Source: Candidatus Cloacimonadota bacterium
GTDB taxonomy: Bacteria > Cloacimonadota > Cloacimonadia > Cloacimonadales > Cloacimonadaceae
Direction: 5' to 3'
Assembly (NCBI GenBank): GCA_028695495.1
Contig: JAQVIX010000020.1
Coordinates: 1-34,168 of the forward strand
DNA: 34,168 bases
Shown here: piece by piece, positions 18,402 through 32,352 of the stretch
Numbering within the stretch: the first letter of the stretch is position 1
Layout: the number at the start of each line of letters is the position of its first letter
Program-made: the position numbers and the translations under genes
Notes under the pieces: model-generated
What the model saw: only the letters and a program-made list of their open reading frames with translations
What the model was told of the DNA's origin: nothing
Databases searched by the model: none

Positions 18402-18660
18402 AGGTGTTAGGCGATAGGTGTTAGGTGTTAGGGCTTCGCGGATTTCGAAGCTATTTGTTTTACAGATTAGCATTTTGATTTGTTAAAAAGTTCAAGTTTA
18501 TCTCAGGAATGAACCTGAGTTATTACGCTCTTTTTCTCAAACATCACGTTTGAATACTCTCTATCCAGTCTCAAAGTCTCATATTCTCTTAGTCCATCGC
18601 TAACAAGCGCATATCACCTCAGCGCCAGCCCTATCACCTAACACCTATCGCCTATCACCT
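18402..18660. repeat. 259-bp element bounded by 32-bp heptamer-based inverted repeats
   Basis: The left arm (18402-18433) and right arm (18629-18660) are reverse complements at 30 of 32 positions. Each arm is itself built of seven-base steps of the form CCTA(A/T)C(A/G). Inside lie the hairpins GCTTCG/CGAAGC (18433-18451), CTCAGG/CCTGAG (18502-18519) and CAAAC/GTTTG. The right arm runs into the end of the lipoprotein gene and supplies its stop codon. The same heptamer string occurs in the tandem array at 28133-28461. Apart from the groL control region, this is all that the gap 18288-18654 contains. Confidence 0.7.
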
Positions 18661-19665
18661 CAAAATATGCACCTGCGCCATCTTTTCCGTTCTTCGCTTC
18701 GGATCGCTTTTTGCCAGCCAGCTTTGAAAGAGGATAAAGCTCTCTTCGCCGGCGCTAAATACGAAATTCTGGGAATTGCGGTTGCTGCGAAAGTCTTCCC
18801 AGCCAGCGATGGGATCCAGAGAAAAGACAAAATACAGGGTTTCGATGCTATAATCCGAATTCTCATCGCAAACTGCGCTAATAGTTTGTTCCCACTTCTC
18901 CCCCGCCTCCAGGTAGTTATCCAGATAATCCAAATTGGGCGCCACCAGCGCCACGCTGCCATCAGACAGGAAATTGAAGAAATAGAAATAGCCAGCCTTA
19001 TTTGAGCTAAGGCTTAGCTTAAATGTTTCCCCATCTTTTAGCAAGCTATTACTTAGCTTTAGTTTTAGCTCCATAGATGGATTATAGATTCTTTCCTGGG
19101 GCAAGATCTTGGCGCGGTAGTGCATGCGATAGATGAGGCTATTTATCTTGCTATCATAGATAGCATCTTTCTTGAGGAACTCCTCTTCCAAAAACCTGCC
19201 TGCCGAAGAGGACATCATAAATACTCCCATGGCAATGCTTTCATCGAAGTGAGCACCGCGTTCCACCTCCATCAAAGCGGTCATATTGCTGATAAATACA
19301 TCTTCCGGCTGCGCCTTTTCCAAAGCCAGGCGCCTTACCAGCTCGCGGGTTTTGCTTTCCGCCTCCTGAATGCTTACCCCATAGTTAAAGACCAGAAAGG
19401 TATCTATTTCCACCACCACTGTCTCGCCCAGCTGCATTACTTTTGTTTTATTCATACGAATATCCAAAGCAGGGGCATTTTCTCTTGCCTGGCTAAATTG
19501 CGGTGCATCCTTTTCTGCAAATATTGCGGTGGAGCGGCTGCGTAGCTCTGCCTGGCTGGCATCTTTTGGAACTTGCGTTTGCGGCAGCGCCTGAGTTTTG
19601 GTTTTGGCACAAGCGCCCAGTATCAATGCCAAACATAGTATTCCCCATACAAAACGATTTACCAT
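18655..19665 (-). CDS. DUF4384-type lipoprotein, last gene of the caspase/FGE-like cluster
   Basis: 336 residues. The N-terminus MVNRFVWGILCLALILGAC ends in a good lipobox (LGAC, lipid-modified Cys19), so it is anchored in the envelope. Residues from about 215 (LKDGETFKLSLSSNKAGYFYFFNFLSDGSVALVAPN) match DUF4384, a beta-rich domain often encoded with bacterial caspases and surface proteins. The central part (about 60-200) is unfamiliar. The start codon overlaps the caspase stop in ATGGTAA, with GGGAGATAGTAAA as ribosome binding site, so translation is coupled to the caspase. A role as sensor, scaffold or target of the caspase is inferred from context only. The stop codon lies in an inverted-repeat arm, so the C-terminus may have been trimmed. 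Confidence 0.8.
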   Translation of the reverse strand: MVNRFVWGILCLALILGACAKTKTQALPQTQVPKDASQAELRSRSTAIFAEKDAPQFSQARENAPALDIRMNKTKVMQLGETVVVEIDTFLVFNYGVSIQEAESKTRELVRRLALEKAQPEDVFISNMTALMEVERGAHFDESIAMGVFMMSSSAGRFLEEEFLKKDAIYDSKINSLIYRMHYRAKILPQERIYNPSMELKLKLSNSLLKDGETFKLSLSSNKAGYFYFFNFLSDGSVALVAPNLDYLDNYLEAGEKWEQTISAVCDENSDYSIETLYFVFSLDPIAGWEDFRSNRNSQNFVFSAGEESFILFQSWLAKSDPKRRTEKMAQVHILR

Positions 19666-21851
19666 TTTACTATCTCCCTTGCCGTGTCTTTACTTTGCAA
19701 TTCCGGCTCCTGCATGCGCCCCATCCGCCGCGCCTGGCTGCTTACCTCTTCGCGGATATATTCCTGCAATTCCTTTTGGCTTAGCTTGCAGTCTTTATTA
19801 GTATCTGCCTCGCCGCGTAAACCTTTCATCAGAAAATAGCTAAAAAGCCCGTGCTGCATATCGGAGAATGCACTGGAGATTTGCGAGCCGCTGGAGGCGG
19901 AAAATACGGATATCTTGGAATGCTGCGCCTGCGGATTGGCGGTGATAAATATCGGACGCGCATCTGCTAAGATAATCTCGTTATCCCTATTTGCCCCGCT
20001 AAAACAGCTATCCAAAAAGAGGGTGATGTGTTTGGCAGGCAGTGAACTGAGGTTTTCATACAGATGGCTCAGGTCATAAGCGCTATTCGCCGCAAAATTG
20101 GGATTCCCATCATAAGGCAAGAGATACGCCGCCTTGCCATCCGGCGCCGGCACCCCATGCCCGCTGAAATAGATAAAGACCTCATTATCTGCACTTCTTA
20201 CATTGCTGCTCAGCCAACCCCGTGCATCAAAAAGGCTCTTAAATTCCCCCAAAGAAGCGCCATCATCCAGCGCCATATAGATGTTTTCAGCTTTTATTCC
20301 CAAAACCTTTATGAAATACTCTTTCATTATTTCCGCATCGCGGCGGGCAAAACGCACCGGGCTTACGTTGCGGTAATTCTCAATGCCGATAATGATGCCC
20401 CATTTATTTTTATCCGGCTTTGCCAAAGTGGGGATATCCTTTTCGATATCGATGGAAAGCGCCGGCGCCTGCGCTACCCGCTCTTGCTGCTGCGGCGTAG
20501 TAATCCCGCTTACCACCATCTGGTCTGCCGTGCGCTCCACCCTGTGAAAAGCCAAATCCAGCGCTTTGCCAATCACGTTATATTGCGAACGGCTTTCTCT
20601 GAGATCCAGCTTGATATCCAGCTTCGTGGCGGTATTTGCGCTTACGATATCAAAGCTGATATCCTGATATTCTCCGGGCGCCATATTGCCCAGATTGAAG
20701 CTGGAAGGGCTATTGCCATAGAAATATAGGTCTGCGCCCAAAACCACACTTGCGAGCAGGTTGCGCGATGCTCCCATACCGCGATTGTGCAATCTTACCG
20801 TAAGTTTCACCGTCTCCCCCGGTTCTATTTTGAAATTACGGTTAAAATCCTCTATTCCGATATCCGAAATCTGAATCTCTGGCGGCAAAGAGGAACGCGT
20901 GGCAAATCTCAAATCTATATCCTTGGGTGGAAAGCCGTTTTTCTCGCTGAAACTAATCCTTAATTCCGCATTCCCATCCCGAATATCAGAGCCTGCCACC
21001 AGATTCAAGCTTTTGCTTATTCTTTCGCCGGGTTTGATCTCGCCAAAAAAGAGATTGCGGCTAAAGCTGATCCCCGGCGCATTTTTAAGCTCAAAAAAGG
21101 CTTCCAGCATATTGGCGCTGCCCTTGCCACGATTGATTATTTCGATATGGATTTCTGCTCTTTCCTCCGCATCCAGCATCTTATTTCCACTGGGTTCATT
21201 AAAAGCAACCGTGGCTGTCAAATCGGGCGGGATTAGCGCCACTCTGTGGGTATCGGGTGCTTTATCTGTAGAGCTAAAAGACCCCAGATTTCCTTCCAGC
21301 CTGGCTTCCAGATATTCCCACTCAAAATCTTCGTTATATTGCCGCGTAAGCAGAAGCTGATAGTTTTTGATATCGTCTTTTACCATTGGTGCTTTCTCGA
21401 TGGGTACTATTACATCAAAGTCTTTCCCCTCCTGGCTTCGCAGCTTGAAGCTCTGTTTATTGGCATCATAATTGCCGATAAGCCAAAAATCCATGCTTTT
21501 GGTTTCGCGGCTAAGATTCAATAGCTCTTGCAAGCGCAGTCTCAGCTTGCCTTGATATTGCTCATGCTGCGCTTTTGCCTTTTTGATCCGCTGTTCATAA
21601 TCCAGGTCCAGATCTGCCATGCGCCGCAGGGCGTCCAGCTTGCGCTCTTCAAATTGCGCATTTGTTTCATATTCGCCCCTTTTCAGATTCAGCAGCCCCA
21701 TTTTCTCTGCCTGTTTTTGTTGCAGCAATTCTTGCGCCGAAAACTTGAGCTGCAGCGATTGCTTGATGGCTCTCGCTTCGTCCAGATTATTTGCATATAT
21801 TGCCAAAGAGATAAATAGCAACACAGATACCAGATAGATACGGATTCTCAT
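19659..21851 (-). CDS. Secreted caspase-family (C14) cysteine peptidase, downstream paralogue
   Basis: 730 residues from the ATG at 21849-21851 (GGGAGAAGAA upstream; a TTG four codons earlier is less likely). A signal peptide covers about residues 1-21. An Ala/Glu/Gln-rich helical, probably coiled-coil region (about 22-110) follows, then beta-rich Ig/CARDB-like segments (about 200-445, for example KIEPGETVKLTVRLHNRG), then the caspase domain from about 483. The catalytic dyad is His565 in YFSGHG and Cys616 in LFLDSCFSG. DTNKDCKLSQKE (683-694) fits an EF-hand loop, suggesting calcium dependence. It lies 80 bases after an FGE-like gene and overlaps the lipoprotein gene by seven bases. The catalytic half is nearly identical to that of the paralogue at 23002-25197. 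Confidence 0.9.
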   Translation of the reverse strand: MRIRIYLVSVLLFISLAIYANNLDEARAIKQSLQLKFSAQELLQQKQAEKMGLLNLKRGEYETNAQFEERKLDALRRMADLDLDYEQRIKKAKAQHEQYQGKLRLRLQELLNLSRETKSMDFWLIGNYDANKQSFKLRSQEGKDFDVIVPIEKAPMVKDDIKNYQLLLTRQYNEDFEWEYLEARLEGNLGSFSSTDKAPDTHRVALIPPDLTATVAFNEPSGNKMLDAEERAEIHIEIINRGKGSANMLEAFFELKNAPGISFSRNLFFGEIKPGERISKSLNLVAGSDIRDGNAELRISFSEKNGFPPKDIDLRFATRSSLPPEIQISDIGIEDFNRNFKIEPGETVKLTVRLHNRGMGASRNLLASVVLGADLYFYGNSPSSFNLGNMAPGEYQDISFDIVSANTATKLDIKLDLRESRSQYNVIGKALDLAFHRVERTADQMVVSGITTPQQQERVAQAPALSIDIEKDIPTLAKPDKNKWGIIIGIENYRNVSPVRFARRDAEIMKEYFIKVLGIKAENIYMALDDGASLGEFKSLFDARGWLSSNVRSADNEVFIYFSGHGVPAPDGKAAYLLPYDGNPNFAANSAYDLSHLYENLSSLPAKHITLFLDSCFSGANRDNEIILADARPIFITANPQAQHSKISVFSASSGSQISSAFSDMQHGLFSYFLMKGLRGEADTNKDCKLSQKELQEYIREEVSSQARRMGRMQEPELQSKDTAREIVKW

Positions 21852-21931
21852 TTCTTCTCCCAAAAAACCTTGTCTTTCTTTATTGTTTTTACTTGATAAT
21901 CTTGCACACTCATTGTTTTCACCAAAAGCTC

Positions 21932-23008
21932 TTAATAAGCGGATCTACATACCCGGAAACCCAGATTCGAGTATTTATCATTGGCATCTGTATGATCACG
22001 GTAGCTTACAGACCAGGTATAGGCTCTTTGCTTTCCGCTACCGCCGCGTATCACCCGCTCCTGCGAATGATATTTTGATCTGGGATCTACCTGCTTTTCC
22101 TTGCTATAAGAGACAAGGGAATCCCACACCCATTCCCACAGGCCCCCGCTCATATAGTATATTCCCAGCTCATTGCCTTTATTAAAACCAGAGGGAGATA
22201 GAAAGGAAACCACGGGTATCAAGTTCAAAAGCCAACCATATTTATCATCAAAGCCACTATATTCGTTGCCCTTGCTATGAATGCCGCCTCGCGCAGCAAA
22301 TTCCCATTCTGCTTCAGTAGGCAATCTATAGCCATTGGCGTTCCAATTACATTGGATACTGGAGCCGCTTCCGCTATAGCAGGGATTAAGCCCTTCCTGG
22401 ATGCTACGCTTATTGCAATATTCAATCGCGTTGTACCAGCTTACCTTTCTTACAGGCAAATCTCCCGATTCCTCAGAATAAGACGGATCCTGGTCCATTA
22501 CGCGTTTCCATTCGTTTTGCGAAACCTCATATTTGCCAATGAAAAAAGAAGATACCGTTACGCTATGCACAGGTTTTTCGTTACTCCACCCCTTTTTATT
22601 GCCCATCATAAAGCTGCCGCCTTCTACAAAAGCCCATTCCGTTGCTTTTGCCTTGATATCAAATTGCCAGTCTCCGGTGGCTGCATCATCCAAAAAATGG
22701 AACCAATAGAGCTTGAGATCCTTCTTTTCCGAAACGGGAGCTTTGATTCCGGCGCCAAAAACAGCCTTGACGTTTTCCAGCCTTGTATCCCCTTGATGTG
22801 GTATTACCCTAAGATAATAAGCTCCCCCCTTATTTCCGCTCAAATCATAAGTAATAATATAATACTCATCAGCAGAATAATATTCTACCCTTATATTGCT
22901 TATCTCTTGGGTAAAAGCTTGCGAGGCAAATACCATCCAGCATAAAAGCATTATCAGCTTGTATGGCAAGCTTGGCACTGGATTTTTTCTGCCAAATATC
23001 CTTACCAT
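21932..23008 (-). CDS. Exported FGE/SUMF1-fold protein lacking the oxidase cysteine pair (first module)
   Basis: 358 residues, with a hydrophobic export segment about residues 16-33. Residues about 35-125 form an N-terminal domain shared only with the paralogue at 25603-26670 in this window (SNIRVEYYSADEYYIITYDLSGN). From about 125 comes the formylglycine-generating-enzyme fold: FVEGGSFMMGN, GKYEVSQNEWKRVM, PVRKVSWYNAIEYCNKRS, NGYRLPTEAEWEFAARGG, GLWEWVWD and LGFRVCRS. The catalytic cysteine pair of true FGE, expected before SYRDH, is replaced by AYTWSV, so sulfatase activation is unlikely. Its ATG overlaps the upstream caspase stop in the same ATGGTAA arrangement as the lipoprotein gene. I infer a structural or ligand-binding partner of the caspase. 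Confidence 0.88.
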   Translation of the reverse strand: MVRIFGRKNPVPSLPYKLIMLLCWMVFASQAFTQEISNIRVEYYSADEYYIITYDLSGNKGGAYYLRVIPHQGDTRLENVKAVFGAGIKAPVSEKKDLKLYWFHFLDDAATGDWQFDIKAKATEWAFVEGGSFMMGNKKGWSNEKPVHSVTVSSFFIGKYEVSQNEWKRVMDQDPSYSEESGDLPVRKVSWYNAIEYCNKRSIQEGLNPCYSGSGSSIQCNWNANGYRLPTEAEWEFAARGGIHSKGNEYSGFDDKYGWLLNLIPVVSFLSPSGFNKGNELGIYYMSGGLWEWVWDSLVSYSKEKQVDPRSKYHSQERVIRGGSGKQRAYTWSVSYRDHTDANDKYSNLGFRVCRSAY

Positions 23009-25197
23009 GCTATCAGCGCTTTGGATGAATCCTTGCTTTGCAATTCCGGCTCCTGCATGCGCCCCATCCGCCGCGCCTGACTGCTTACGTTTTCGCGGAT
23101 ATATTCCTGCAATTCCTTTTGGCTCAGCTTGCGGTCTTTATTAGCATCCGCCTCGCCGCGTAAACCTTTCATCAGAAAATAGCTAAAAAGCCCGTGCTGC
23201 ATATCGGAATAGGCACTGGAGATTTGCGAACCGCTGGAGGCGGAAAATACGGATATCTTGGAGTGTTTCGCCTGCGGATTGGCGGTGATAAATATCGGAC
23301 GCGCATCTGCTAAGATAATCTCGTTATCTCTATTTGCCCCGCTAAAACAGCTATCCAAAAAGAGGGTGATTTGCCGCGCCGGCAGTGCGCCGAGATTCTC
23401 ATACAGATGGTTCAGGTCATAAGCGCTATTCTCTGCGAAATTGGGATTCCCATCATAAGGCAAGAGATACGCCGCCTTGCCATCCGGCGCCGGCACCCCA
23501 TGCCCGCTGAAATAGATAAAGACCTCATTATCTGCACTTCTTACATTGCTGCTCAGCCACCCCCGTGCATCAAAAAGACTCTTAAATTCCCCCAAAGATG
23601 CGCCATCATCCAGCGCCATATAGATATTTTCCGCTTTTATTCCCAAAACCCGGACGAAATACTCCTTCATTACTTCCGCATCGCGGCGGGCAAAACGCAC
23701 CGGACTTACATTGCGGTAATTCTCAATGCCGATAATTACGCCCCAGCGATTCTTATCCACCTTTGCCAAAGCAGGGATGTCTTTTTCGATATCGATGGAA
23801 AGCGCCGGCGCCTGCGCCACCTGCTGCTGGGTAGCTTTGCCGCTTATCACCATCTGATCCGCCGTGCGCTCCATGCGGTTGAAAGCTAAGTTCAGCGCCT
23901 GACCCATTTTGCTAAATTGCGTGCGGCTCTCTTTCAAATCCAGCTTGATATCCAGCTTCGTAGCGGTAAGTGCGCTTACGATATTGAAGCTGATATCCTT
24001 GTAAGAACCAGATTCCATATTGCCCAGGTTAAAGCTGGAAGGGCTATCGCCAAAAAGAAATACCCCTTCACTCAAAAGCAAGCTTGCATTTAAGTTCCGC
24101 GCCGCACCCAAACCGCGGTTGTGCACCCGCACCGTCACCTTCACCTGCTCCCCCGGTTCTATCTTGTTATTACGACTAAAGTCTTCAATCCCAATATCCG
24201 CAATATAGATATCCGGCATTAAAAGAGCATGGGTATCAAAGCCCAAAACCACGTTATTGGGCGGAAAGCCATTCTGCTCTTTGAAGCTGATCTTTAGCTC
24301 GGCGCGCCCATTTCGGGTATCTGCACCCGCTACTAAGTTCAGGCTCTTTCGGATGGTCTCACCGGCTTTTACTTCACCAAAATAAAGATTGCGGCTAAAG
24401 CTGATGCCCGGGGCATTGTTTAGTTCAAAGCTGGCTTCCAGCATGTTGGCGCTGCCCTTGCCGCTATTTTTGATTTCGATTTGCAGCTGTGCCGTTTCTT
24501 CGGCGTCTAAGATATTATTGCCGCTGGGTTCGCTGAAGCTTACGGTAGCGCTAAGGTTGGGTGGAATCAGCGCGATGGAAGAGGCTGCGCCTGTTTTAAG
24601 TGCAGGCGCCTTATCGGTGGAAGCGAATGTACCTAAAGAACCCTCCAATTTTGCTTCTAAGTAATCCCACTTAAGGTCTTCATTGAGTTGACGCGTAACT
24701 ATAAGTTGGTAGCTTTTGATGCTTTGTTTTACGCTGGGCGCTTTGTCCAGGGGGACGGTGATATCAAAGGTTTTTTCAGAAACTTTTACTTTATATCGCT
24801 GCGTATCAGCATCATAATTCCCGATCAAAGAGAAATCTTGTTTAACGCTTTCCCGGCTTGTGGCGAGTAATTCCCTTAGACGCGTGTTTAGTTTTCTTTT
24901 CGCTTCCTCATGCGCCGCTCTCGCATCCTGAATCCTTTGAGCATAATCTCTTCCAATTGCCGCCTTTCTTGCTGCCCCATCTTGTCTGCGCTGCTCAAAC
25001 TGCGCTGAGGTTTCAAACTCTCCTTTTACGGGGTTAGTTATCTCAACTAATATATTATCTCTTTCTACTTCCAGTTTCTTGGCTGAAAATGGCATATTTA
25101 GCATTGCTTTGATTGCTCTTGCCTCGTCCAGGACATCGGCAGACAAAAAGCCGGCAAACAATAGCATTATCACCGATATATAAATAAAAGCTTTCAT
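23002..25197 (-). CDS. Secreted caspase-family (C14) cysteine peptidase, upstream paralogue
   Basis: 731 residues, with GGAGGAAAGCC before the ATG. The layout equals that of its paralogue at 19659-21851: signal peptide (MKAFIYISVIMLLFAGFLSA), helical region with VLDEARAIKAML and many charged residues, two or more beta-rich CARDB-like segments, then the caspase domain. Catalytic His566 (YFSGHG) and Cys617 (LFLDSCFSG) are present, and DANKDRKLSQKE (684-695) is an EF-hand-like loop. By eye the two caspase domains differ at roughly one residue in ten, while the N-terminal halves agree at only about half of positions. It overlaps the downstream FGE-like gene by seven bases. As a C14 peptidase it would cut at specific basic or acidic residues; the specificity and target are unknown. 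Confidence 0.9.
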   Translation of the reverse strand: MKAFIYISVIMLLFAGFLSADVLDEARAIKAMLNMPFSAKKLEVERDNILVEITNPVKGEFETSAQFEQRRQDGAARKAAIGRDYAQRIQDARAAHEEAKRKLNTRLRELLATSRESVKQDFSLIGNYDADTQRYKVKVSEKTFDITVPLDKAPSVKQSIKSYQLIVTRQLNEDLKWDYLEAKLEGSLGTFASTDKAPALKTGAASSIALIPPNLSATVSFSEPSGNNILDAEETAQLQIEIKNSGKGSANMLEASFELNNAPGISFSRNLYFGEVKAGETIRKSLNLVAGADTRNGRAELKISFKEQNGFPPNNVVLGFDTHALLMPDIYIADIGIEDFSRNNKIEPGEQVKVTVRVHNRGLGAARNLNASLLLSEGVFLFGDSPSSFNLGNMESGSYKDISFNIVSALTATKLDIKLDLKESRTQFSKMGQALNLAFNRMERTADQMVISGKATQQQVAQAPALSIDIEKDIPALAKVDKNRWGVIIGIENYRNVSPVRFARRDAEVMKEYFVRVLGIKAENIYMALDDGASLGEFKSLFDARGWLSSNVRSADNEVFIYFSGHGVPAPDGKAAYLLPYDGNPNFAENSAYDLNHLYENLGALPARQITLFLDSCFSGANRDNEIILADARPIFITANPQAKHSKISVFSASSGSQISSAYSDMQHGLFSYFLMKGLRGEADANKDRKLSQKELQEYIRENVSSQARRMGRMQEPELQSKDSSKALIAW

Positions 25198-25260
25198 GGC
25201 TTTCCTCCATTTTGGCGTTTCATTGCTTTCTCAAAGCACGATTTCGTTATGTGCATTTTA

Positions 25261-25477
25261 TTACAAAATCCTGTCTTCAGGTATTTCTATCATCCTGTAG
25301 CTGTGGGCATCTAAGCCCTTGGAGTTTATGACGCTTATCCGCCTTCTACCTGAACTGCGCATTAAGATAGCGGCATAGACTTCAAGTGGCTGAAACACAA
25401 GCTTACGCATTAGTTCGTGAAGTCCATGGGATATCTCCCGTATCATGGTTAAATCTTACTAACATCAATCTATACAT
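25261..25477 (-). pseudogene. Frameshifted short gene, best-preserved member of the relic ORF family
   Basis: An ATG at 25475-25477 is preceded by AAGGAAGACGAT and reads MYRLMLVRFNHDTGDIPW before going out of frame. A plus-one shift near residue 16 joins it to HGLHELMRKLVFQPLEVYAA, then RRRISVINSKGLDAHSYRM, ending in PEDRIL at 25261. The span is 72 codons plus one base, as expected for a single-base insertion. Pieces of the same sequence recur at 1723-1839, 26744-26870, 27785-27900 and 27962-28013. I do not recognise the protein. The downstream piece alone is open for 61 codons, but its own ATG has no good ribosome binding site. It lies in the 405-base gap between the first FGE-like gene and its caspase. 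Confidence 0.45.
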
Positions 25478-25501
25478 ATCGTCTTCCTTGCTACGCGGCG
25501 G

Positions 25502-25523
25502 GCAGGGGGATAAATCCCCCTGC
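25502..25523. repeat. GCAGGGGGA-TAAA-TCCCCCTGC hairpin
   Basis: A perfect 9-bp stem with a four-base loop, in the gap between the FGE-like gene and the caspase gene. Neither strand has a T tract after it, so it is not a convincing terminator. It could still trim or stabilise the mRNA between the two genes. Confidence 0.6.
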
Positions 25524-25602
25524 ACCCCCGTCTGGTTCTAAATGCATACATCGTCCCTTCGACCTGAAATTTGCAAAAGGCAAAAAGAACAAAAAACACA
25601 AA

Positions 25603-26670
25603 TCAAGGGGAAACCCTAAGACAGCGAAAGCCGATACTGCTGCCGCTAATAGCCGCATAGAAGTTGCTCCGATACGAAACGGTGCAATAACTGGCACTAT
25701 TGCTCCAGCTACCGCCGCGTACCACACGGCTAGACCCGCTCGATGCGCCATGCGGATTAGTCTGTGCACCGCTGGGATAGGAGCCATAAATATCCCAGCA
25801 CCATTCCCAAACGTTGCCGCTCATATCGTAAATGCCAAGCTCGTTCGGAAGCTTGCTGCCCACTGTGTGTGTAGTATTACCAGAATTGGAATCATACCAC
25901 GCCACGGCATTGATATCGTTACTGCCAGAATAAGTGTAGCCCTGGCTTTGGTTCCCACCTTTAGCGGCATACATCCATTCCATCTCCGTCGGCAGCCGGT
26001 AGCCATTCGCGGTCCAATCGCAATTGACATTGGTGTGGTTATTATAATTGCCCTTCCAGCCATTGGGCCAGTTAGAGGGATTAGTATCATAAGTACCATA
26101 GCTGTAGCAAGGTGTAAACCCTTCCTGCAGGCTGCGCCGGTTGCAGTATTCTATGGCATCATACCAGGATACCTTGTAAACTGGATAGTTCGCACCTACT
26201 CCATAGCCTGAGGCTGGATTGCTCCCCATCACCGCCTGATATTCAGCCTGCGTAGTCTCGTAGTTTGAAATGTAAAAACTGGAAAGAGTCACATTGGATG
26301 TGCCGTTATTAAAGGAACCGCCTTGAACAAGTATCATGTTTGATTTAGATGCCGTTATTCTAAATCTCCAGTTCCCGGATTCTACTCCTTCTAATAGTGG
26401 GTGCCAGAATACTTGTAGGTTTTTTGCGGGTTTTACGCTACGATCAATTCCAGCGCCTGTTGTAGCAATGGGATTTTTGATGTCTTTTGTGTCCCAGTAA
26501 GGATTAAGTGTCACTAAATACGTATCATTGGCTTTACCATTCAAATCATAAGTAATAATATAATATCCCCCCGTAGGCTCGTATTCAGCCCGGATATTGC
26601 TCACTTCCTGAGCCAGTGCCAGCGCCGTAAAAGCCAGCATAAGTATAAGCGCAATCACCTTTTTCTGCAT
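25603..26670 (-). CDS. Exported FGE/SUMF1-fold protein, first gene of the caspase/FGE-like cluster
   Basis: 355 residues from the ATG at 26668-26670 (GAGGAAAGC upstream; the frame opens ten codons earlier without a ribosome binding site). Signal peptide MQKKVIALILMLAFTALALA. The N-terminal domain of about 95 residues (SNIRAEYEPTGGYYIITYDLNG) is homologous to that of the other FGE-like protein. The FGE fold follows: VQGGSFNNGT, SNYETTQAEYQAVMG, PVYKVSWYDAIEYCNRRS, NGYRLPTEMEWMYAAKGG, MSGNVWEWCWD, RVVRGGSW and GFRCLR. Only the second cysteine of the catalytic pair remains (SASYCTVSYRSN); the earlier position is Ser or Asn. Catalytic oxidation of sulfatase cysteine is therefore unlikely. No sulfatase gene is present in the window. 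Confidence 0.9.
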   Translation of the reverse strand: MQKKVIALILMLAFTALALAQEVSNIRAEYEPTGGYYIITYDLNGKANDTYLVTLNPYWDTKDIKNPIATTGAGIDRSVKPAKNLQVFWHPLLEGVESGNWRFRITASKSNMILVQGGSFNNGTSNVTLSSFYISNYETTQAEYQAVMGSNPASGYGVGANYPVYKVSWYDAIEYCNRRSLQEGFTPCYSYGTYDTNPSNWPNGWKGNYNNHTNVNCDWTANGYRLPTEMEWMYAAKGGNQSQGYTYSGSNDINAVAWYDSNSGNTTHTVGSKLPNELGIYDMSGNVWEWCWDIYGSYPSGAQTNPHGASSGSSRVVRGGSWSNSASYCTVSYRSNFYAAISGSSIGFRCLRVSP

Positions 26671-26728: not shown

Positions 26729-27152
26729 TCTTTTTGTTGCGAAGCCTTTTGGACTTCTGCCGCTTATCCGCCTTCAATCACCACCAACGCCCTATACAAG
26801 CGAGCAGGAGTTCAAAGGGCTTTACCAGATTCCATACACCATACGCCAGCCTGGTGGATTCGACACGTCACGTGTCGAGCGAGGCTGTCCAATAATACGA
26901 AAAACAACACAACAACAAGAAATGTACACACCTGAAATGTAGGGGTTCAAGGCACCCAAACCCGCCGAAAATTACATGCAAAAGCTAATCATTACGGACT
27001 CAGTATCAATTTATTACGGTGTGCGCTTTGCGCACGCTTTATTAAAAACGGGCGCAAAACCTTGCGCCCCTACATTCCCAATGTGGCAAATATCTTGCTT
27101 GCTTTTGGCATTTCGGGACAGCGTTGCCTGCATCCCCGTCTGTTGCCCTTAC

Positions 27153-27199
27153 AATGCCCTCGCCTCTACCGGTAAATTCGGGGTAGAGGTGAGGGCATT
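27153..27199. repeat. Dispersed palindromic element, copy 2 (AATGCCCTCGCC family)
   Basis: AATGCCCTCGCCTCTACC (27153-27170) and GGTAGAGGTGAGGGCATT (27182-27199) pair along 18 bp with one G-T. The loop is 11 bases and contains AAATTC, as in copy 1 at 3872-3916. It lies inside the larger inverted repeat. Confidence 0.75.
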
Positions 27200-27357
27200 G
27201 CGAGAGAGGCATACGGGAAATGGGCGGAAAAATTGTCCCGTGCGAAATTGCTTGATCCCAAAAATGAGCCAAATGAGCTGATTTATGTTTAGTAATAGTC
27301 TAAGAAATATTGCGGTTACAAATAATCATAAAACGCGTATAAAATGGAGAGAACAAA

Positions 27358-27462
27358 ATGTCTAAACTATCCGATATTTTGAACATGTCTGCCGAGCAGA
27401 ACCCGGTTAGGGGGGCTGGGGTTTTATTTCCATATTTAAACGCGTTTCTTTACCCAGGGTGA
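27358..27462 (+). pseudogene. Possible truncated gene start cut off by a repeat
   Basis: ATG at 27358 is preceded by TATAAAATGGAGAGAACAAA, a good ribosome binding site. It reads MSKLSDILNMSAEQNPV, a plausible gene start. From about 27409 the frame runs into the dispersed repeat at 27412-27485 and stops at 27460-27462 after 34 codons. I read it as the 5' stub of a gene whose body was replaced by the repeat. Too short for certainty. Confidence 0.3.
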
Positions 27463-27485
27463 TCTTGCCTAAAACTCGCAAGCTC
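27412..27485. repeat. Dispersed repeat, inverted copy of 4091-4164
   Basis: Reading the minus strand from 27485: GAGCTTGCGAGTTTTAGGCA, then AGATCACCCTGGGTAA, a diverged middle, then CCAGCCCC. Block order and spacing equal those of the copy at 4091-4164. Here the CAGCCCC edge is not followed by the long palindrome. Confidence 0.65.
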
Positions 27486-27826
27486 ACTGGCTGCGCAAGC
27501 GCAGCAATGAAAAATGAAGGATGAATAATGGCGGGAGGCTGTCCAGAAATGCCAAAACCAAGCACGATATCCAACGAAATGGGAGTGTAGGGGCGCAATG
27601 CTTTGCGCCCGCTTTTAACAAAGCGTGCGCGCAGCGCACACCGTAATAAATTGATGCACAATCCGTAATGATTACCTGTTGCGTGTAATTCTCGGCGGGT
27701 TCAAGGCATTGAACCCCTACATTTCAGGGGTGGACATTTCTTGTTGTTATGTTGTTTTTCGTATTACTGGACAGCCTCGTTAATTTGACGCTTACGCATG
27801 GTGTGTGGAATTGGGGAAAGCCTTTT

Positions 27827-28132: not shown

Positions 28133-28461
28133 GCGCAGCGCCTGCCACCTGCCACCTGCGACCTGCCAAAATGTCTATTCCAAAACAAATATCTCCGAAC
28201 CGAGCGCAGCGCCTAACACCTATCCCCTATCACCTAACACCTCGCGCAGCGCCGCGCAGCCCTGCCACCTGCAACCTGCCAAAATGTCTATTCCAAAACA
28301 AATATCTCCGAACCGAGCGCAGCGCCTAACACCTATCCCCTATCACCTAACACCTCGCGCAGCGCCGCGCAGCCCTGCCACCTGCCAAAATGTCTATTCC
28401 AAAACAAATATCTCCGAACCGAGCGCAGCGCCTAACACCTATCCCCTATCACCTAACACCT
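28133..28461. repeat. Tandem repeat array, three units of about 106-113 bp
   Basis: The landmark ATGTCTATTCCAAAACAAAT begins at 28171, 28284 and 28390, giving periods of 113 and 106. Each unit contains a GCCACCTGCCA-type run, the landmark, GAACCGAGCGCAGCGC, and the heptamer string CCTAACACCTATCCCCTATC. The units lack stops in two frames, but the translated products are low-complexity and carried wholly by the repetition. Units are near-identical throughout, so there are no variable spacers and this is not a CRISPR array. Confidence 0.9.
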
Positions 28462-28469
28462 AAAAAGTA

Positions 28470-28498
28470 TTCGCTTTGGCAGGAAACTTGCATATAAT
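28470..28498 (+). promoter_or_regulatory. Probable promoter of the C25 peptidase operon
   Basis: A perfect TATAAT at 28493-28498, with a weak -35 (TTCGCT, 28470-28475) at 17 bp. It begins immediately after the tandem array. A TTAGGC-GGA-GCCTAA hairpin (28517-28531) lies in the presumed leader. Confidence 0.45.
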
Positions 28499-28575: not shown

Positions 28576-31500
28576 ATGAAGAAGCAATTCACTATCTTTC
28601 TGTTGCTGGTGTTAGTGGCTGTATTAAGTGCCGGTAGCATTAGCCTGCAATCCTTGGCTGCGGAAGCGGAAATCTTGCGTAGCACATCCGAGGGCATGAG
28701 CCTGCGCTTTGCCATCGATAGCTTTGAATACCAAAATATCGAGACTAAGGAAGGCGTTTTCAGCCGCCTGAGCGCAGAGACTTTTACCACTACAAACACC
28801 GTAGGCGAGCCGGCTTTGCCGCTTTTGAGAAGAATTATTTCGGTGCCCTTAGGAGCCACCTTGAAATACAAGATGCGCAATGTATCCCGCCAAAACATCG
28901 CTTTGAGCGAAGCGGGAGTGCACTATCCCCTAATGCCTTATCAGGAATCCGTATCCAAAAGTGCAGACCCCGAAACCCTGCCTTTTGTAGTAAACCGAGA
29001 TTTTTACAACGGCACTAAAGCCACCCACGAAGCCACCATTCAGCTTAGCGAGCTGGGAATGATGCGGGGCGAGCGCCTTTTTGCCGTGGACTACGTTCCG
29101 GCAAATTACAATCCGGCTACCCGGAGCTTGGATGTAGTACACAGCCTGGATGTGGATATCGTATTTGAAAATGCGGATTATGCCGCTACCAATGCGCTAA
29201 AAGCCAAGACGCAATCTGTAGCTTTTGATACTGCCTTTGCAGCCAGCGTTTGGAACTATAATAGCAACCGCAGCAATGTATTTCTGCGGCATCCCACCGG
29301 CTATGTAATCATTACTCCCCAAAGCTTTATGAGTGCCTTGCAGCCTTTTATAGATTGGAAGCGTCAGGAAGGCTATTTGCTTACCATTGCCACTATTGAA
29401 AGCATTGGCAATAATGCCACAAACATCAGGAACTATATGCAAAGCCTCTGGAGCGCCGCCACGCCAGAAAACCCTGCCCCCAGCTACCTGCTGATAGTGG
29501 GCGATGTGGCGCAAGTAGTTTCCAATAGCGGCAGCACCGGCAGCCATCCTACAGACCTGAACTATGTGCGCCTGGAAGGCTCAGACTATATGCCGGAAAT
29601 GTATTTTGGGCGCTTTTCTGCCACCACACCGGCGGAAGTGACAAATCAGGTAAATAAAACCCTCGTGCACGAAAAATACACAATGCCAGATGATAGCTAC
29701 CTGATAAATCCCGTAATGATTGCCGGCGTTGATGACAACTGGGCAAGCACCCACGGCAATGGACAGATCAATTATGCCACGCAAAATTACTTTAATAATG
29801 CCCATGGCATTACGCCATATACTTACCTTTACCCCGCTTCGGGCAGCTCTGCCTCGCAAATAGTAGGCAATGTATCTGCCGGCAGCGGTTATGTAAATTA
29901 TACCGCTCATGGAGACGTAACCTTCTGGCACAGTCCCAGATTTGACATCAGCAATATAAACAACCTACAAAACTATAATAAATACTCTTTTGTGGTGGGA
30001 AATTGCTGCCTTACCAGCAAGTTTGACCACGGTATTTGCTTTGCCGAAGCCTGGCTGAGAGCAGAAAACAAAGGCGCCGTAATATATATTGGCGGCACCA
30101 ATAGCACCTATTGGAACGAAGACTATTGGTGGGGCGTGGGCTTCAAAGGCAGCGCCACAGGGAGCGCTCCGCCATATAACGCCAATAACCTGGGTGTATA
30201 TGACGCCATTTTCCACGATCACAATGAACCTTTTGCCAAATGGGCAGGTTCGGCAGGCGCCATGGTAGCCGCTGGGAATCTTGCCGTGGTGCAAAGCAAT
30301 AGCAATATCATCAATATGTATTGGGAAATCTATTCCATCATGGGCGATCCCTCGCTGGTTCCCTATCTGGGCATTCCGGCGGATAATTCCTTTAGCCCTC
30401 CGGAAACCATCTTTTTGGGTATGGGCGCCCTTGAGATAAATGCCGATCCTTACAGCTATGTAGCCATTTCCATGAATGGCGAGCTGCACGGTGTGGGGCT
30501 TACCGATGCCAATGGCTATCTGAACCTGGAATATGCACCATTTGTAGAACCCGGCATGGCGCAAATCGTGCTTACGCGCTCCATGCGCAAGCCCATGATC
30601 TCCCATGTAAGCGTAATACCAAATGACGGAGCTTATGTAACCGTGGGTCTTTTGGGCTTTGAGGATGATAATGGCATTGCCGAAGCGGGAGAAAGCCTGC
30701 CGCTAAACTTAAGCTTTAATAACGTGGGCATTTTGGCAGCCGAAAACCTCACGGTAAATGTGGATAGCGAAAGCCCCTGGGTATATTTTGATACCAAAGA
30801 GGCGCAGATCGATGATATTCCGGCAGATACTGAGGTAAATATCTCCGGACTTTTTACCCTGCATATAGATCAAGGCGTGCCGGACCAACACCGCGCCAAT
30901 ATCCGCTTTAGCGTAAGCGATGGCAGCCACACTTGGGAAACGCGCCGCTATATCGATATAAACGCACCGAACGTATATATCGCTTCTACCACTTACTTTG
31001 ATCCTAATAATAACGGCGCTTTTGAGCCGGGAGAAACCATCAATATCACCCTGGACATAGCCAATAACGGACACATGGCGGTGGAAAGCGGCAATCTGAG
31101 ATTGATCTTAAATAGCGAATACGCCAGCCTGCTGGCAAATCACTTTACCTTGCCCGGTATTCCCATTGGCGGCAATATCCCCATCTCGCTGCACCTTAGC
31201 ATTTCTCCAGATGCGGAAGAAGGCAGCGTAATCCCCTTGGGAGTAGCGCTGGATATGGGTGCGCAGATGATAAATCATAGCATAATAGTTCCCGTAGGCG
31301 CCGTAATGGAAGCCTTTGAAAGCGGAAACTTCAATGTATTTCCCTGGATAAATAATAGTGCGGTGCCCTGGACTATCTCCACCGATGCCTATAGTGGCAG
31401 CTATTCCGCCCGCAGCGGCGCCATTGGCAACAACACCAATAGCAGCCTATCGATAAGCATGAACGTAAGCGCAGATTCCGAGATTAGCTTTTTCCGCAGA

Positions 31501-32352
31501 GTATCCTCGGAAAATAACTACGACTTCCTGCGCTTTTATATAGATGATAGCCCCGTGGGTGCCTGGAGCGGAAACGTAAGTTGGAGCCAGGTAAGCTTCC
31601 CCGTTAGCGCCGGACTGCGCACCTTCAAATGGAGCTATATAAAGGACTATAGTGTATCCAGTGGCTCCGATGCCGCCTGGATAGATAATATCGCCTTCCC
31701 GATAAGTAATGATACCGATATTCCCCTGCTCTACACCGGCATTGAAGGCATTCATTTTGATAATGTATTGCCAAATAGCACAAACACCCAAAACCTGGTA
31801 ATCCGAAACCTGGGCGCCGGAACCCTCAGCGGTGTGCTCTCCATCCCCCAAAGCTTTACGCTATATAGCATGGGTGAATATCTGCCAAATGATAGCGGCT
31901 TTGAAATCCCTGCCACCGAATCTATAAGCTATGTAATAAGCTATGTAGCGGGCGAAACCGTAACGGACTTTAACGATGTAATATATATTATGAGCAACGA
32001 TCCGGATTTGGCGGAACTAACGATTCCCATCTCCGTTACCGGCAAAATGGCAAATAACGATGTAATAAACCCCGTAATGACCGCACTGAAGGGCAACTAT
32101 CCAAACCCCTTCAATCCGGAAACTTCCATTCGCTTTAGCCTGAAGGATGCCGGCAGAGTAAAGATTGCGGTATATAACCTGAAAGGACAGATGGTAAGAA
32201 AACTCATCGATCGCGAGCTGGATTCCGGCTTCCACAGCGTGGTATGGGATGGACGCGATGAAAGCGGCAAAAACGTAGCCAGCGGCATTTATTTCTATCG
32301 CATGGAAAGCGATAGCTACACGGCAAATCGCAAGATGATGCTAATGAAATAG
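28576..32352 (+). CDS. Gingipain-like C25 cysteine peptidase with adhesin-type and sorting domains
   Basis: 1258 residues, with GGAG five bases before the ATG. Order: signal peptide (about 1-19), propeptide-like region (about 25-235), C25 peptidase (about 241-600), beta-sandwich repeats with E-P-G-E-T-I-N loops (about 690-900), a cleaved-adhesin-like jelly roll (about 909-1045, AFESGNF... DAAWIDNIAFP), an Ig-like domain, and a FlgD-like sorting domain (about 1172-1258, NYPNPFNPETSIRFSL, YNLKGQMV, VVWDGRDE, ASGIYFYRM). The catalytic His is His445 (NYTAHGD) and the Cys is most likely Cys478 (VVGNCCLTSKF), by alignment with the gene downstream. Both active-site neighbourhoods are less canonical than there. 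It should be exported by type IX secretion and act on protein outside the cell. It is the first gene of a two-gene operon. Confidence 0.92.
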   Translation: MKKQFTIFLLLVLVAVLSAGSISLQSLAAEAEILRSTSEGMSLRFAIDSFEYQNIETKEGVFSRLSAETFTTTNTVGEPALPLLRRIISVPLGATLKYKMRNVSRQNIALSEAGVHYPLMPYQESVSKSADPETLPFVVNRDFYNGTKATHEATIQLSELGMMRGERLFAVDYVPANYNPATRSLDVVHSLDVDIVFENADYAATNALKAKTQSVAFDTAFAASVWNYNSNRSNVFLRHPTGYVIITPQSFMSALQPFIDWKRQEGYLLTIATIESIGNNATNIRNYMQSLWSAATPENPAPSYLLIVGDVAQVVSNSGSTGSHPTDLNYVRLEGSDYMPEMYFGRFSATTPAEVTNQVNKTLVHEKYTMPDDSYLINPVMIAGVDDNWASTHGNGQINYATQNYFNNAHGITPYTYLYPASGSSASQIVGNVSAGSGYVNYTAHGDVTFWHSPRFDISNINNLQNYNKYSFVVGNCCLTSKFDHGICFAEAWLRAENKGAVIYIGGTNSTYWNEDYWWGVGFKGSATGSAPPYNANNLGVYDAIFHDHNEPFAKWAGSAGAMVAAGNLAVVQSNSNIINMYWEIYSIMGDPSLVPYLGIPADNSFSPPETIFLGMGALEINADPYSYVAISMNGELHGVGLTDANGYLNLEYAPFVEPGMAQIVLTRSMRKPMISHVSVIPNDGAYVTVGLLGFEDDNGIAEAGESLPLNLSFNNVGILAAENLTVNVDSESPWVYFDTKEAQIDDIPADTEVNISGLFTLHIDQGVPDQHRANIRFSVSDGSHTWETRRYIDINAPNVYIASTTYFDPNNNGAFEPGETINITLDIANNGHMAVESGNLRLILNSEYASLLANHFTLPGIPIGGNIPISLHLSISPDAEEGSVIPLGVALDMGAQMINHSIIVPVGAVMEAFESGNFNVFPWINNSAVPWTISTDAYSGSYSARSGAIGNNTNSSLSISMNVSADSEISFFRRVSSENNYDFLRFYIDDSPVGAWSGNVSWSQVSFPVSAGLRTFKWSYIKDYSVSSGSDAAWIDNIAFPISNDTDIPLLYTGIEGIHFDNVLPNSTNTQNLVIRNLGAGTLSGVLSIPQSFTLYSMGEYLPNDSGFEIPATESISYVISYVAGETVTDFNDVIYIMSNDPDLAELTIPISVTGKMANNDVINPVMTALKGNYPNPFNPETSIRFSLKDAGRVKIAVYNLKGQMVRKLIDRELDSGFHSVVWDGRDESGKNVASGIYFYRMESDSYTANRKMMLMK

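Follow-up and report, generated by a model that had tools for sequence, protein, structure and literature searches.

Based on sequence comparisons, we consider it probable that a minus-strand operon of a Candidatus Cloacimonadota bacterium encodes a two-part exported sensor-protease system, in which a hypervariable sensor, FGE1, is paired with a caspase. Comparison across the phylum establishes that FGE1 bears the signature of a target of a diversity-generating retroelement (DGR), that the operon is conserved, that a partner domain found on FGE1 is linked to caspases, and that caspases are fused to variable domains in two relatives. The operon lies in the window, by which we mean the whole 34,168-nucleotide stretch of DNA that was analyzed; the host MAG comprises 2.7 Mb in 155 contigs and is 95.3% complete.

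Organization and conservation of the caspase operon

Five genes follow one another on the minus strand in the order FGE, caspase, FGE, caspase, DUF4384 lipoprotein, an arrangement already described in the initial annotation and on which open reading frames and Pfam agree. FGE1 (25603..26670, minus strand; Pfam FGE-sulfatase 6e-45; PDB 2Y3C), a TvpA-like DGR variable protein, consists from N- to C-terminus of a signal peptide, a beta partner domain and a C-type-lectin/FGE fold. Downstream, likewise on the minus strand, are caspase 1 (23002..25197; Pfam Peptidase_C14 7e-15 plus CARDB), FGE2 (21932..23008; FGE-sulfatase 1e-41), caspase 2 (19659..21851, with TTG at 21863 as an alternative start; Peptidase_C14 4e-15 plus CARDB) and the DUF4384 lipoprotein (18655..19665; DUF4384 4e-07). 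In agreement with the earlier description, each of the five N-termini was judged by eye to be a signal peptide or, on the lipoprotein and likewise on its relatives, a lipobox (LGAC), and we therefore predict that all five products are located outside the cytoplasm.

Both caspase stops overlap the next start within the same ATGGTAA, at 23002..23008 for FGE2 and at 19659..19665 for the lipoprotein (both minus strand), as had been noted, and the latter overlap is kept in relatives. Translational coupling had been claimed for the entire module. This holds for two of the four junctions; because FGE1 and caspase 1 are separated by 405 nt and FGE2 and caspase 2 by 80 nt, coupling of the whole operon is rejected. 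The 405-nt spacer (25198..25602, no strand) contains no TR here, and its position is the site of avd-RT-TR in relatives G022 and G049 and of the TR in G011. Promoter and terminator matches at the locus were at chance level. Repeats are also present in the surroundings: the apparently non-coding region upstream of FGE1 (26880-27779) holds large imperfect inverted repeats with arms of 164 and 74 nt, a repeat of ~113 nt is present in three tandem copies at 28148-28479, and GATAGGTGTTAGG-like text similar to this repeat occurs at about 18620-18660, past the lipoprotein gene. Further upstream of the module, in divergent orientation, is a gene for a C25 (gingipain-type) protease with a propeptide and a type IX secretion tail (28576-32352).

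Both caspases have the p20 domain and His-Cys dyad of peptidase family C14/orthocaspases. The dyad, which had been recognized earlier, consists of H566 (FSGHG) and C617 (LDSCFSG) and is also kept in two relatives. An EF-hand-like loop, likewise pointed out before, is present in both (DANKDRKLSQKE in caspase 1, at 23113..23148 on the minus strand, and DTNKDCKLSQKE in caspase 2); it is degenerate and lacks the usual Gly at position 6, Pfam does not call it, and it is better preserved in relatives (DANGDKKISQQE); calcium binding by the loop and the calcium response proposed initially are putative. In a structural model of the caspase (pLDDT 69), the N-terminus is helical, and the rest consists of an alpha/beta domain, two Ig-like (CARDB) domains and the C14 domain; structure matches of the model were to Ig-like folds only, such as integrin legs, with TM-scores <0.4. 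Among PDB sequences there was no relative of the caspase and no convincing one of the DUF4384 protein. PADLOC called no known anti-phage defense system; the window proteins match its generic caspase model at ~40 bits.

Across 125 genomes of the phylum, caspase relatives reach 62% identity, and most of their neighborhoods contain a single set of FGE, caspase and DUF4384 lipoprotein. The FGE-caspase-DUF4384 order recurs throughout the phylum, and of the 11 genomes that show the caspase/DUF4384 junction, 9, among them the host genome, have the 7-nt overlap; together, these recurrences make the layout more than a product of chance. The close caspase is patchily present, even inside the genus. The proposal of a conserved exported caspase module built of separate subunits is therefore upheld by the gene order kept in relatives. 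The alternating duplication, which had been taken for the layout itself, is confined to the host genome, and the supposedly different N-terminal recognition parts of the two FGE proteins turned out to be one and the same domain.

The two caspases are about 49-65% identical at the nucleotide level in their N-terminal half, with third positions near saturation, and mostly 90-97% identical in the catalytic half. This step in identity leads us to read the pair as an old duplication followed by gene conversion of the catalytic domain. Such an old FGE-caspase duplication would have left the second, non-variable pair in the host genome. A DGR-type variable region was sought in FGE2 by the adenine-bias test and not found (mismatches at 22/50 A versus 43/97 non-A positions, p=0.58). 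Judged by these features, FGE2 is a fixed paralogue that shares the partner domain and the FGE fold of FGE1, for which it serves as an internal control.

FGE1 and diversity-generating retroelements

By homology, FGE1 is a TvpA-type DGR variable protein with a C-type-lectin fold and a hypervariable C-terminus, and the 'FGE-like' identity assigned to it initially has to be revised: it is a DGR-diversified variable protein, not a formylglycine-generating enzyme. Its best PDB match is 2Y3C, TvpA from Treponema denticola (E 1e-44), compared to ~1e-14 for true FGEs, and the alignment with 2Y3C extends through to GFR; Pfam, 2Y3C and the position of the variable region (VR) agree on a CLec/FGE fold with a C-terminal VR. 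An AlphaFold model of FGE1 from a three-sequence input was poor (pLDDT 47) and was left unused.

The VR core, at 25624..25722 on the minus strand, was compared with the TRs of two genomes of the host's genus, G038 and G039, which read KRGGSWNNNANNCTVSNRNNNNATNSNNNIGFR where FGE1 has VRGGSWSNSASYCTVSYRSNFYAAISGSSIGFR at the matching place. The AAY codons are changed in 13 of 14 cases, and the pyrimidine third base is kept in 14 of 14. Measured against these TRs, the differences fall mainly at adenines (21/44 A versus 13/86 non-A positions, p=1e-4); as the TRs come from other species of the genus, 13/86 non-adenine mismatches are left, which speaks against the DGR reading. Three more genes of the host genome, on contigs C96, C149 and C110, have a 180-bp end that is 77% identical to the FGE1 3' end, and their mismatches to same-genus TRs are also adenine-biased (p=4e-7, 9e-7 and 5e-4, respectively). 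Differences among the host VR copies sit in NNY codons inside otherwise constant sequence. Between FGE1 and the C96 gene, the upstream 58 codons differ 5/5/11 times at codon positions 1/2/3, and the last 37 codons, which constitute the VR, differ 14/12/4 times. The four host VRs have long stretches of constant bases in common that continue past their stop codons, a sign that homing was fairly recent.

The three FGE variable-region genes that the host has besides FGE1 carry chitobiase-C-like/Fn3 modules (L083:4910-7498, L084:7007-8197 and L091:1112-2734) and are probably remote DGR targets, with no adjacent caspase. A protein kinase-FGE fusion (L086:7137-9383, G000:C40) has no DGR signature.

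We searched the relatives for pairs of repeats whose mismatches concentrate at adenines and found that the orthologous caspase operon of G022 is a complete DGR, in the order FGE-VR, avd, RT, TR, caspase, DUF4384 lipoprotein, LPP20-like lipoprotein, FGE-VR. Here, TR-VR mismatches affect 17/38 A versus 2/78 non-A positions, and for the other VR 14/38 versus 2/78; bAvd and RVT_1 were confirmed by Pfam. The order in G049 is avd-RT-TR-caspase, the TR of G011 immediately precedes the caspase and sits at the end of a contig, and in G110 a DUF4384 gene follows the TR. A DGR-type RT ([IVL]GNxxSQ) together with Avd is thus found in the orthologous loci of G022 and G049. At a cut-off of p<1.3e-3 for 38 tests, adenine bias was significant for the caspase-linked FGEs of G030, G041, G021, G022 (both), G019 (fgeB), G010, G074, G111 and G115; it was suggestive only for G020, G092 and fgeA of G019, and not significant for G014 and G110_C74. 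Many DGR targets in the phylum occur without a caspase.

Neither the window nor the rest of the MAG yielded a cognate DGR-type RT and Avd for the FGE1 VR. When a TR of FGE1 was sought in the host genome by DNA search, by two motif searches and by BLAST of the RT contigs, only VRs came up, and no Avd above the Pfam cut-off was found in the MAG, where weak matches occur on C29 and C134. Two RTs, on C105 and C89, resemble those of group II introns. The other two, on C48 and C71, were rejected as a source of FGE1 variation, being part of phage-like DGRs with other targets. These two DGRs (L081:8032-9508, G000:C48; L082:7550-9019, G000:C71) consist of an RT with IGNYxSQ, a TR and a VR that lies in a tail-fiber-like gene, with 18/19 and 12/13 mismatches at TR adenines. 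Since no cognate RT or Avd was found, we classify FGE1 as a DGR target and do not classify the window locus as a complete DGR. The RT and TR of the host are either absent from the assembly or lost.

In the latter case, the VR pattern could be an old scar, left by a DGR that has since disappeared, with FGE1 now fixed in a lineage that no longer diversifies it. This variant concerns the state of the system and is compatible with our preferred explanation; we regard it as possible, if somewhat doubtful. The lack of an RT, TR or Avd for the FGE1 VR in a 95.3% complete assembly speaks for it, as does G019, a 98% complete genome that has the VR signature and only a weak, non-DGR-like RT match. Against it, the DGR loci of G022, G049 and G011 lie at contig ends, which makes loss during assembly plausible, and the constant sequence that the four host VRs have in common past their stop codons points to homing in the not too distant past.

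The partner domain and a possible mechanism

The N-terminal ~90-aa beta domain of FGE1 (26335..26610, minus strand), a putative caspase-partner domain, has its counterpart in FGE2 (22652-22909, minus strand) and is also found on the FGEs that neighbor caspases in relatives. It is absent from DGR targets that carry chitobiase or PEGA modules or are fused to a caspase. The domain additionally occurs on non-FGE proteins whose genes end 3-32 nt before more distant caspases (the host's own on C96, and in G014 and G032); in these, it is followed by PEGA-like parts and, by eye, a barrel-like C-terminus. In a search of the phylum with the domain, 15 of the 18 matches at E<=1e-20, a count that covers strong matches only, with further weaker ones below this cut-off, lie on a contig with a caspase module nearby; the chance that a random place falls within 5 kb of such a caspase is ~0.0016. 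The three exceptions are in G011, where the locus is cut by the contig end, and in G037 and G025, which have a partner-domain FGE with no caspase in reach. Three genes of G034 and one of G032 encode C14 caspase-FGE fusions that have a matching VR and are themselves the targets of DGRs. Three lines of sequence evidence thus link the variable protein to the caspase, namely the operon, the fusion and the partner domain.

The three fusions of G034 (L148:10370-15664 and L149:206-1786; G034:C7) are arranged round one avd-RT-TR cassette. The host genome has a third caspase (L034:4365-8001, G000:C96), and the protein preceding it has the partner domain, with a barrel-like head that replaces the FGE fold.

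From this distribution we infer that the ~90-aa domain could be a docking part on which sensor heads are exchangeable. The C-terminal tip of FGE1 was rewritten by a DGR, as shown by its adenine-codon signature and by the intact DGRs that relatives carry in this operon. We propose that the hypervariable tip would bind a ligand in the periplasm or at the cell surface, and the binding signal might pass through the docking domain to switch the partner caspase. A probable role of the DUF4384 lipoprotein is to anchor the caspase at the outer membrane or to regulate it there. Once switched, the caspase would cleave an envelope substrate. The likely outcome would be a response to foreign or neighboring cells or to phages that is possibly self-damaging; defense, kin recognition and adhesion-linked processing are all possible. 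In its most general form, which we put forward tentatively and at a little less than even confidence, this would be DGR-based, NTPase-free extracytoplasmic recognition, in which a hypervariable secreted sensor plugs into an exported caspase via a common partner domain and the sensor heads are interchangeable, one type being a DGR-diversified lectin fold and the other resembling an outer-membrane barrel. Such a bacterium could anticipate ligands that it has never met on the surfaces of phages, rivals or kin, and answer them by envelope proteolysis.

Alternatively, FGE1 might be a DGR-diversified surface adhesin or particle-binding protein, and the caspase of the operon a protease that matures surface proteins or has a housekeeping function on them. 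According to Roux 2021 (PMC8144416), cells mostly use DGRs to diversify exported binding proteins, the other VR genes of the host with chitobiase-like/Fn3 modules have no adjacent caspase, and the C25 protease encoded in the window has a type IX secretion tail. The partner domain, however, is found largely on neighbors of caspases, caspases are fused to VRs in G034 and G032, and the caspase lies inside the DGR operon of G022 and G049 and behind the TR in G011, and we regard this reading as unlikely. It is highly improbable that the FGE-like proteins act as formylglycine-generating enzymes, or as related oxidoreductases, on a cysteine of a partner: despite the Pfam FGE-sulfatase match, their closest structural relative is TvpA, not FGE, the C-terminus is hypervariable, and of the catalytic/copper cysteine pair near the C-terminus (Cys336/Cys341 in human FGE) FGE1 retains one (SYCTVSYR, with R at +5) and FGE2 none (YTWSVSYR), so that true FGE chemistry was rejected on the 2Y3C match and the missing cysteines.

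Comparison with known systems

TvpA and other DGR variable proteins (2Y3C) resemble FGE1 in their FGE fold, C-terminal VR, AAY-coded variable positions and export. Unlike TvpA, FGE1 is joined to a putative caspase-partner domain, and its operon also encodes a caspase and a DUF4384 lipoprotein. For multicellular bacteria, conflict systems have been proposed that couple DGR-diversified FGE/CLec sensors to peptidase effectors (PMC10907252; PMC7159879). The DGR antigen-sensor conflict systems (PMC10907252) and the VMAP ternary systems (PMC7159879) are similar to the present locus in combining an FGE/CLec sensor and a peptidase effector, of the trypsin or caspase type, with a DGR. In contrast to these STAND/VMAP systems, the window module occurs in Cloacimonadota, its parts are all predicted to be exported, and neither a STAND or MoxR NTPase nor a vWA or EAD adaptor was found in the five proteins and ten further window genes scanned, among which the sole ATPase is an ABC transporter beside its permease.

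Cyanobacterial DGR variable proteins carry N-terminal orthocaspase domains (PMC7517822) and, like the fusions of G034 and G032, combine a caspase and a DGR-variable domain in one protein. They are mostly predicted to be cytosolic, whereas caspase and variable protein of the window appear to be subunits of their own, both exported and accompanied by a lipoprotein and a common partner domain. In the relevant passages on orthocaspases (PMC7475262, PMC6426788, PMC8283722), DUF4384 is mentioned together with caspases that likewise have a C14 domain and a His-Cys dyad; compared to the proteins described in those passages, DUF4384 is here on a separate lipoprotein encoded by an overlapping gene, and the caspase has CARDB domains. 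In the open-licence literature, a search for DGR and Cloacimonadota returned no paper, and one for DGR and Cloacimonetes only PMC8144416, where the phylum is placed under FCB. The initial annotation had stated that no system with this layout was described. Within that literature, this holds for the exact layout; it does not extend to the underlying principle, as caspases fused to DGR-variable proteins, or located next to them, have been described in cyanobacteria and multicellular bacteria.

With our analysis, what was annotated as 'FGE-like/caspase' becomes a hypothesis, open to testing, about what cellular DGR-diversified proteins recognize and what their binding triggers. Most of the DGR sensor systems proposed so far come from multicellular bacteria and depend on NTPases. 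The candidate sensor and effector of the present locus belong to a widespread anaerobic phylum; both are small exported proteins with a gene each, and a single shared partner domain marks the pair. The partner domain also provides a sequence handle to find the sensors of other exported caspases. The kind of system is already known, with representatives that are NTPase-based or mostly predicted to be cytosolic. The present version has three components and a common partner domain, is exported and does without an NTPase, and within the open-licence literature we regard this form as what is new.
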